DNA of 35,885 nucleotides from Candidatus Nomurabacteria bacterium. Lineage in GTDB: Bacteria > Patescibacteriota > Minisyncoccia > Phycocordibacterales > CAIZLB01. Under the pieces are notes generated by a model. That model was not told where the DNA came from. It was given only the letters and a program-made list of their open reading frames with translations, and ran no database searches. The DNA lies in assembly GCA_943356525.1 (NCBI GenBank), contig CALRFG010000003.1, positions 1 through 35,885 of the forward strand, written 5' to 3'. Made by a program: the position numbers and the translations under genes. Below are positions 28,504 through 31,861 of the stretch, one piece after another; the stretch's first letter is position 1, and each line of letters opens with the position of its first letter.

Positions 28504-30504
28504 TTAGCGAACCTCGAAACCTTCTTGGACCAGTTTTTCAGCCATATTTTGCATGATTAATTTTGTCTCTTCCTCAGTCAATGTTTTCTCATAAGACTGA
28601 AACACAAAACGATATGCATAAGAAGTTTTTCCTTCTTTTTTGAAAATATCAAACCTAAAATAATTTTCTATAAGTGGTTGTTTTGAAACTTCCTCCTTTA
28701 TCATATTTTCTATATCATCCTCACTTTTTCCTAAATCATCATTAACAAAAAATGCTATATCTCTACTCATCGCTGGATAATCTGAACCTTTCTTATATTT
28801 CTTCACTTTGATCAGTGCATTATCAGATAAATAATTATCAGAATGTTCTATGTCATTAAGTTTTATATTATTTAAAATTATTTCACAGATGATAACATTG
28901 TTTACCAACTCAATTTTTCCACCAATCAAACCAAGCTCAGTAACTATTTCATTCATCACATCCTCCGCTTTTTTATCCTTCGGCCATTTTACCATACCAA
29001 AGGCGATAGCAAGACGATTTTCTTCAATCAAATCATTTCCTTTTTGAGAAAATACTTTTCCAATCTCAAAAACCTTAACTATATTTTTTGAAACAAGATC
29101 TAAATATTTAAAGTTATTCTCTACTGCCTTGATAATATTATTTTTCAAATCCCCTCGGAGACTATCTCTGTCAGCAGTGAGCGAGTTTTCAAGTTTTATT
29201 GAATGAGGGTTTATCTTTGAATCAACAAGAGTATGCAATATAACCTCATCAAAATCTTTTGCTTTGAAGAATTTTCTCAAGTTAAAAATAAGTTTATCAG
29301 CATCAGTCTCTAATTCTAGTGTTGGTTTTGCACTGTCCTTAAAACTTTCATCATATATCAAAGACTCAAAACCTTTATTTCTCAAAAATTCGTCAGCCAC
29401 ATCACAAGGCAAATCCAAATCTGATCTATGATACGGAACGATTATTGTATATTTATTATCGCCTTTTTTTATAATTTCAACCCCAGTCTTTGTAAGAATA
29501 TTTTCCAAAAAAGAAACAACTTGATCTGGTATACCTGAATCTTTTAAATCAATCATTTGAGTTATATTGTCAATATCAATGTCAATAGTTTTTCTATTAT
29601 TTTTATTGATAATATTTTCTATACTATCTGATATCTCTGTCTCATGAACTTTTATCTCTGACTTATCCCAAGTTAAAAGATGAATATAATCTTGTACTGC
29701 TAGTAAGAATCTTTCTTTATTTAATCCTTGTTCAAAACGTTTTGATGAATCGTTTAACAAGTTTAAAGATCGCGCAGTTTTTCGAACTGTAACTTGATTA
29801 AAATTGGCTGACTCTAAATATACACTTGTTGTTTTTTCATCTACTTCAGCTTTGCTTCCTCCTTTTACACCAGCTATAGCGAGTATATTATTACTATCTC
29901 GTATAACCAAAGTGTTTGGTTCGAGTTTTATTTCTTTTCCACCGAGTAAGGTTATAGTTTCACCCTCTTTTGAAAGATCTACATGTATTTGTCCCTCAAC
30001 TTTATCTACATCGAAAACGTGTAGTGGTTGTCCTGTGTCGAACATTACAAAGTTTGTAAGATCAACTAATAATGATTTTGGGTTTTGGCCGATAGCAGTT
30101 AGTGATTTTTTAATCCATTCTGGTGATTCAGTATTTTTAATATTTTCTATTTTTGTAAGCGAATACACTGGACATAATTCTGTTAAAAATTTATTTACGA
30201 TTTCGTGATTAACTAAAAAATTTGTAATTAATATATCTTTATCAGTTATATCAAATCTAACATTCTCATCAATAATAAGTTCAGGAATAAGTAGAGATAA
30301 CTCTAAGGCCACATAGCGAAGTCCATGGGCATATGGTCCACGGTCTGGAGTTATCTTTATATCATAGATAAAATCATCATTTTTCTCCTCAAAAGAGTCA
30401 ACTTCAAAAGCATGCATAGTCAGTGTATCCACCAGTTTTTGAGGAGTTGGTAACACTTCAGGATTTTTATAGTAAGTCGATAACCAGTTATACGAAATAA
30501 GCAT
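28504..30504 (-). CDS. pheT: Phenylalanyl-tRNA synthetase beta subunit, compact form
   Basis: MLISYNWLSTYY, DIKITPDRGPYAHGLRYVALELS, SLNLLNDSSKRFEQGL, C-terminal FDX-ACB-like domain. Confidence 0.93.
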   Translation of the reverse strand: MLISYNWLSTYYKNPEVLPTPQKLVDTLTMHAFEVDSFEEKNDDFIYDIKITPDRGPYAHGLRYVALELSLLIPELIIDENVRFDITDKDILITNFLVNHEIVNKFLTELCPVYSLTKIENIKNTESPEWIKKSLTAIGQNPKSLLVDLTNFVMFDTGQPLHVFDVDKVEGQIHVDLSKEGETITLLGGKEIKLEPNTLVIRDSNNILAIAGVKGGSKAEVDEKTTSVYLESANFNQVTVRKTARSLNLLNDSSKRFEQGLNKERFLLAVQDYIHLLTWDKSEIKVHETEISDSIENIINKNNRKTIDIDIDNITQMIDLKDSGIPDQVVSFLENILTKTGVEIIKKGDNKYTIIVPYHRSDLDLPCDVADEFLRNKGFESLIYDESFKDSAKPTLELETDADKLIFNLRKFFKAKDFDEVILHTLVDSKINPHSIKLENSLTADRDSLRGDLKNNIIKAVENNFKYLDLVSKNIVKVFEIGKVFSQKGNDLIEENRLAIAFGMVKWPKDKKAEDVMNEIVTELGLIGGKIELVNNVIICEIILNNIKLNDIEHSDNYLSDNALIKVKKYKKGSDYPAMSRDIAFFVNDDLGKSEDDIENMIKEEVSKQPLIENYFRFDIFKKEGKTSYAYRFVFQSYEKTLTEEETKLIMQNMAEKLVQEGFEVR

Positions 30505-30550
30505 ATAATTAGAGTAGCAGATGGGGTTTTTATTGTAAATCGCTCGGGTC

Positions 30551-30617
30551 TTGACTTATTACTAATACATTGGGTTATATATTTTTAGTTTGCATAAAAC
30601 TATTCTTGGCTTATAAT
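30551..30617 (+). promoter_or_regulatory. Two candidate promoters for a plus-strand ncRNA
   Basis: TTGACT-N18-TTATAT (30551-30580) and TTGCAT-N16-TATAAT (30590-30617). Confidence 0.55.
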
Positions 30618-30621
30618 AAAT

Positions 30622-30788
30622 ACGTAACCGATCCTCCGTCGGAAAAGTTACATACCGGAACAGAAATTATTCAGTTCCACTTGCACATTCTCTCGTAAGA
30701 TATTTGTAATCAGATACTGGCCTGTGCACTTTATCTCGATTTCAAATCTCCTACTTCAACCCAGCTCCTAACGGAAGCTGGTTTTTTT
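30622..30788 (+). ncRNA. Candidate ncRNA 1, about 165 nt
   Basis: Promoter upstream, no ATG ORF, hairpins GTAACCGA../TCGG..GTTAC and GGAAC-A-GAA-ATTA-TTC-A-GTTCC, closing TGCACA...TGTGCA, ending in terminator CCAGCT...AGCTGG-T7. Confidence 0.55.
30761..30788 (+). terminator. Terminator of candidate ncRNA 1
   Basis: CCAGCT...AGCTGG followed by T7. Confidence 0.85.
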
Positions 30789-30824
30789 ATTTACTTTTTT
30801 AAACGTCGGGTGTAATATATATAA

Positions 30825-30967
30825 GTAGCTCTTTCATTGGCACATTTGTCGACCATGTTTTCAGTGCGAAGCTTAACTAATTACAGTATTTAAACAACTA
30901 ACCCCTTTTACGAAAAAGTATAGCGCCCGGAGCGTTCCAGCAATCGCAGGAATTCTCCGGGTCTTTT
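30825..30967 (+). ncRNA. Candidate ncRNA 2, about 140 nt
   Basis: Second terminator-bounded segment without credible ORF (only a 12-codon MFSVRSLTNYSI); weak promoter TTTACT-N17-TAATAT. Confidence 0.42.
30926..30967 (+). terminator. Terminator of candidate ncRNA 2
   Basis: CCCGGAGcgTTCC...GGAAttCTCCGGG then TC and T6. Confidence 0.87.
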
Positions 30968-31129
30968 TTATATTTTTTTCTTCTTCTAACTCAAATAAAA
31001 AAAAGAGCTGTCATTCCATGGCTTCTGAACATGAAATATAAAAATAACCCATTCTTTCCTTGAATGATTTATTTTTATGCGACTTGTTTTGATTTATCAA
31101 AACAGAAGTGCCCTTGTGATAAGTAGTCT

Positions 31130-31861
31130 TTAAAACCACCTACTAAACCTCACATCTCCCATATACATATCACGTATATCATCGATACCATATTTCAACA
31201 TCACCAACCTCTCAAGTCCCATGCCAAAAGCAAAACCTTTATATTTTTGTATATCATCTTTATTCATTTTCTCATTATCTTTAAAACCGTTTTCAATAAC
31301 TTCAGGATGTATCAATCCTCCACCACAAACTTCAAGCCATTTATCTTTCCAAAAAATATCAACCTCAAAACCTGGTTTTACGAATGGAAAATAGCTTGAC
31401 CTAAATCTTACTTGTATATCATCTCCGAAGAACTTTTTAAACGCATAGGTTAAAGTATTTTTTAAATCAGCCATAGAAACATTTTCATCTATGCATAAAC
31501 CTTCAAGTTGATGGAACTCGGCTTCATGTGTCGCGTCAGTTGCTTCATTTCTAAAAACCTTGCCAGCAGATATTATTCTTATCGGAGGAATATTTTCATT
31601 CATACATTTTATTTGAGAGTTTGATGTATGTGTTCTTGGTAATATTCTTTCAATCGATCCTGACTTCTCTATACGCTCAAAACTTTTAGGTAACCAAAAT
31701 GTATCTTGCGAATCTCGAGCTGGATGATCTTTCGCAACACGTAATGCATCAAAAATTTTCCATTCAGTATCTATCTCAGGACCATTATAAAAATCAAATC
31801 CAAGTTCTTTAAATATATCTTTAAGCTCGTATATAGTCTGTGTTACCGGATGTAAACTCAT
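31130..31861 (-). CDS. pheS: Phenylalanyl-tRNA synthetase alpha subunit, catalytic core only
   Basis: Starts at LHPVTQTIYELKDIFKELGF; GPEIDTEWKIFDAL, DHPARDSQDTFW, FHQLEGLCID, GMGLERLVMLKYGIDDIR. Confidence 0.95.
   Translation of the reverse strand: MSLHPVTQTIYELKDIFKELGFDFYNGPEIDTEWKIFDALRVAKDHPARDSQDTFWLPKSFERIEKSGSIERILPRTHTSNSQIKCMNENIPPIRIISAGKVFRNEATDATHEAEFHQLEGLCIDENVSMADLKNTLTYAFKKFFGDDIQVRFRSSYFPFVKPGFEVDIFWKDKWLEVCGGGLIHPEVIENGFKDNEKMNKDDIQKYKGFAFGMGLERLVMLKYGIDDIRDMYMGDVRFSRWF

Follow-up and report, generated by a model that had tools for sequence, protein, structure and literature searches.

What occupies the space between pheS and pheT in this genome, and is any of it under selection? 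The window, a stretch of 35,885 nt, is contig C3 of a 626 kb Candidatus Nomurabacteria genome in eight contigs (G000), which we compared with two congeners, G001 and G002, to give three genomes of the genus. Both genes lie on the minus strand, pheT at 28504–30504 and pheS, with a PheS catalytic core in Pfam, at 31130–31861. The 625 nt between them (30505–31129) hold no open reading frame of 60 amino acids and no conserved reading frame, and no frame of 15 amino acids or more looks conserved. An earlier note on this DNA had called the gap unusual and free of credible coding sequence, and it was right on both counts. Within the genus the gap spans 625, 637 and 611 nt, against 3–128 nt at the eleven sister-genus loci measured, and a widened non-coding pheS-pheT gap was found in this genus only. 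The few wide gaps seen in other families (612 and 705 nt, for example) appear to contain protein-coding frames. At one locus of another family (L044, genome G036) the pheS-pheT gap carries a TTGACA-type promoter divergent from pheT and then a short stretch ending in a hairpin, a possible parallel.

Tandem plus-strand promoter-terminator units occupy the gap in all three members of the genus: two in the window, three in G002, where one minus-strand terminator also follows pheS, and at least two in G001. The pair in the window corresponds to that described earlier, a promoter with a CCAGCT/AGCTGG-T7 terminator and then a CCCGGAG..CTCCGGG hairpin with its T tract. Setting aside the one after pheS in G002, the five terminators of the G000 and G002 gaps all point in the plus direction. 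On the minus strand of the window's gap we found no terminator of this type, in keeping with the earlier statement that the terminators do not serve pheS. G000 has few such terminators, about 96 in total (0.079 per kb per strand), and two on one strand occur in just 5 of its 262 intergenic regions. Two tandem promoter-hairpin-terminator units, candidate small RNAs, were also observed between a dprA-like gene and topA (G000:C6:3603-3988).

The first unit encodes RNA1, a structured candidate ncRNA of about 165 nt (30624–30788, plus strand) defined by conservation and fold tests. Its promoter (30589–30617, plus) reads TTTGCA-17-TATAAT (10/12; -35 TTTGCA/TTGCAT, -10 TATAAT), and it is here that the block aligned with G002 starts. 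The predicted RNA, all on the plus strand, opens with P1, a 5′-end hairpin closed by GTAAC/GTTAC (30624–30651), followed by P2, an invariant hairpin, GGAACAGAAATTATTCAGTTCC (30657–30678). A 16-nt unpaired linker, ACTTGCACATTCTCTC (30679–30694), varies only at its last base and leads into P3, a long hairpin (30695–30754) that carries a compensatory G-C to A-U change and whose conserved loop, TGGCCTGTGCACT, includes a self-complementary GTGCAC. The unit closes with an intrinsic terminator (30761–30788, CCAGCT..AGCTGG-T7). The terminator stem of G002 has a wholly different sequence (CCGCCC/GGGCGG) with form and T tract kept, which argues for termination on the plus strand. The three hairpins previously proposed for RNA1 were found at their places, with the qualification that TGCACA/TGTGCA has to either make a pseudoknot with P3 or take its place.

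RNA1 recurs at the equivalent position in G002 with promoter, body and terminator (81% identity over 174 nt, E 9.6e-39). In a 138-column alignment the two bodies are 82% identical and share 53 consecutive invariant bases; at four-fold degenerate sites of pheS, identity between the same two genomes drops to 44%, which is near saturation. Judged by this comparison, RNA1 is under selection. Its consensus fold scored z -3.9, and none of 500 column-shuffled alignments did as well; the P1-P2 half reached z -4.5 and P3, which is weaker, z -2.6, with 7 of 500 column shuffles as good. Two of the 24 substitutions fall within the 60 paired columns, counting pairs formed in both sequences (P 4.7e-5 with the structure picked on both sequences; P 0.004 or 0.05 with single-sequence folds). 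Together they make up one compensatory pair (G-C in one RNA1 and A-U in its counterpart), and covariation is confined to that pair because the known RNA1 sequences number two.

The minus-strand fold of RNA1 is equally strong (z -3.9), so the strand call rests on the promoter and terminator. These flank the conserved block, the neighbouring units agree with them, and together they decide for the plus strand. Alignment of the gap among sister genomes, as the earlier note had proposed, gave conservation and one compensatory pair in G002, and no RNA1 in G001. RNA1 has its own promoter and terminator, constraint with no conserved frame, and a secondary structure conserved across two sequences. From these features a stand-alone structured ncRNA, predicted to be transcribed from the plus strand, is well supported.

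The suggestion that the gap holds two plus-strand ncRNAs fares differently for RNA2, for which a transcription unit could be supported and a conserved or structured body could not. RNA2 (30825–30969, plus, about 145 nt) has a promoter at 30790–30818 (plus, TTTACT-17-TAATAT), with counterparts in the G002 and G001 alignments, and a strong GC-rich terminator hairpin with a T tract at 30925–30969 (plus, CCCGGAG..CTCCGGG). Each of the three genomes keeps a discernible promoter and the opening bases of the transcript (GTAGC), and the terminator is maintained as well. The body has diverged, with no conservation among the three, and its fold does not surpass chance (window z +1.2, G002 +0.2, G001 +0.9). 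Neither selective constraint nor conserved secondary structure was found, and a fast-evolving small RNA, and no more, is plausible. The common origin once proposed for RNA1 and RNA2 finds no support: the shared GCACATT is a single 7-mer, of which about one is expected by chance (137 x 100 / 4^7), and it is missing from RNA2 of G002. The additional unit of G002, RNA0, comes first there, with RNA1 in the middle and RNA2 last; it survives in the window only as a degenerate promoter (30551–30580, plus), in which alignment with G001 and G002 shows TTGACTTATT kept and the -10 lost; in both congeners this promoter is intact.

Other features lie at the edges of the gap. A minus-strand sequence at 30505–30539 (TTTACA-17-TACTCT, preceded by TG) adjoins the pheT start codon, is kept in the three members of the genus and is likely to be pheT's own promoter, giving a near-leaderless start. 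Near the 3′ end of pheS, a hairpin of undefined strand, AAAAATAA..TTATTTTT (31040–31076), has relatives in G001 and G002 and is a possible bidirectional terminator. It is followed by a dispersed intergenic hairpin repeat, CGACTT-hairpin-AGAAGTGCCCTTGTG (31079–31121, strand undefined). This repeat, also written CGACTT-hairpin-AGAAGTGCCCTTGTGGT, was seen at loci L008, L011, L014, L018, L020, L003, L005, L004 and L006 as well and often adjoins tRNA genes. With up to 2 mismatches, its 16-nt core occurs in 19 copies in G002 versus 1 in G000, and G002 also carries it in 56-nt tandem arrays at the ends of contigs C26, C36 and C74; it is possibly a mobile palindromic element. The degenerate promoter, the pheT promoter-like sequence and the repeat had gone unmentioned in the earlier note.

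How widely is RNA1 distributed, and does it belong to a known family? A covariance model of RNA1, run on 197 genomes of the order and 15 of the family, matched only G000 and G002; RNA1 was not found in G001, in sister genera or in the 196 other genomes of the order. The next matches fell in a clpC-like coding frame or at other chance positions, and we rejected them as RNA1. The core pattern, searched against 84,980 species genomes, gave one match, in the Candidatus Parcubacteria MAG LF-bin-100, which corresponds to G002 and shares the contig concerned. It had no match in viral contigs, and RNA1 had none in phage and plasmid records. A Rfam scan of the gap, at the gathering threshold and at E 10, returned nothing credible. 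The same scan of all of G000 placed tmRNA, RNase P RNA, rRNAs, tRNAs and two LOOT RNAs outside the gap, bearing out the view that RNA1 is none of 6S, SRP, RNase P RNA or tmRNA. Within the 23S rRNA gene it also gave a group I intron match (L091:12880-13083). RNA1 is a previously undescribed RNA family, so far from two species of one genus. The LOOT RNAs (RF03000; L064:266-387 and L065:10116-10244) resemble it in being orphan structured RNAs of G000, where they occur in two copies, but they are unrelated in sequence and fold, and neither RNA1 nor RNA2 matched LOOT even at E 10.

We consider it probable that the gap is a genus-specific sRNA locus, with tandem plus-strand ncRNA genes that include a structured and probably trans-acting RNA1; units, conservation and fold are read from sequence, and transcription, trans action, the partner and the pseudoknot are predicted. 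Two such genes (three in G002), each with a sigma-70-type promoter and an intrinsic terminator, would separate pheS from pheT, and pheT would apparently use its own promoter. RNA1 would run from P1 through the invariant P2, the 16-nt unpaired linker ACUUGCACAUUCUCUC and the long P3 to the terminator. The linker is a candidate pairing segment, and its TGCACA may pair with TGTGCA of the P3 loop to form an H-type pseudoknot; both hexamers are invariant, so covariation is no test of this pairing. RNA1 would act in trans through the invariant P2-linker region, as the contact to a conserved mRNA or protein partner, with P1 and P3 serving as scaffold, and the joint invariance of paired and unpaired bases points to partner recognition. 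Like RNA1, trans-acting intergenic bacterial sRNAs combine a sigma-70-type promoter, an intrinsic terminator and a length of 100-200 nt with a 5′ hairpin, a conserved unpaired segment and a narrow phylogenetic range. As a predicted transcript, RNA1 departs from them in the larger size of its conserved core and in its long P3 hairpin.

Several other readings would account for part of these data. The equally good minus-strand fold and the position of RNA1 upstream of pheT would suit a cis element of the pheS-pheT transcript, such as a pheT leader, an attenuator or a processing element. This seems improbable, however, given that the five terminators of the G000 and G002 gaps (the post-pheS one of G002 aside) face plus, that the conserved block runs from a plus-strand promoter to a plus-strand terminator kept in form and not in sequence, and that all three genomes preserve a promoter-like sequence beside pheT. 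Moreover, the minus strand has no attenuator, and the sole Phe-leader match was sub-threshold and on the opposite strand. Similarly unlikely is a reading of the units as promoter-terminator debris, selectively neutral and doing no more than insulate pheT from pheS. In its favour, the RNA2 and RNA0 bodies diverge fast, RNA2 folds no better than shuffles and the window no longer has RNA0; but the conservation of RNA1 far above synonymous sites is unlike that of a neutral spacer, and on this comparison the reading is already disfavoured for RNA1.

It is very improbable that RNA1 represents a housekeeping RNA (6S or SRP) in diverged form, even though neither was detected in G000. It is missing from G001 and from sister genera, and had no covariance-model match to 6S RNA (RF00013) or SRP RNA (RF00169). 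6S RNA is also a stand-alone gene of similar length, but RNA1 lacks its rod-shaped closing stem and central bubble. RNA1 also lacks the SRP GGAAG motif and, being missing even from G001, cannot replace SRP RNA family-wide. SRP RNA went undetected in the family and among 60 genomes scanned across the order, and none of 15 family genomes had the Ffh M domain (PF02978); both results agree with the published loss of SRP from Parcubacteria (PMC4508563).

Within the favoured reading of a trans-acting RNA1, the partner could be sought among mRNAs. Antisense complementarity of RNA1 to its own genome extended to at most 13 nt, which is chance level. When its conserved segments were compared with 399 orthologous start regions, the best pairing joined the P3 loop to the region upstream of mraZ, and 16 of 60 shuffles equalled it. 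In both genomes, MraZ-type operator repeats in this region (G000:C2:84174-84233) can pair in part with the P3 loop, though no better than chance. Given the joint invariance of paired and unpaired bases, and with start-region pairing within the range of shuffles, we favour action in trans through either an mRNA or a protein partner, and a lineage-specific RNA acting in trans appears likeliest. A sub-case, which we hold possible without favouring it, would make RNA1 a stable structural RNA, not a base-pairing regulator, that binds protein or assembles with itself as kissing dimers through the GUGCAC loop. Invariance of both P2 strands and the linkers goes beyond the needs of pairing alone, the self-complementary GUGCAC is conserved and the antisense search was negative; yet no protein partner gene adjoins the locus, G001 has no RNA1 and the dimer idea is based on a single hexamer. 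More doubtful is the broader proposal of a new RNA family in streamlined Parcubacteria, with RNA1 as its founder, pseudoknotted and possibly dimerising; its locus would turn over fast, with tandem sRNA genes coming and going between pheS and pheT.

To our knowledge, regulatory RNA in Patescibacteria has been little described, and our literature search found little. Patescibacteria genomes have been stripped of many regulators. The find, as read from sequence, is real and modest: in an unusual place lies a new structured RNA restricted to one genus, and its companions are less certain. RNA1 provides a defined sequence to test. A genome of ~0.63 Mb has kept a 625-nt non-coding insertion between two core genes, and the insertion carries an RNA whose conservation exceeds that of synonymous sites; this suggests that RNA-based control persists under strong genome reduction.
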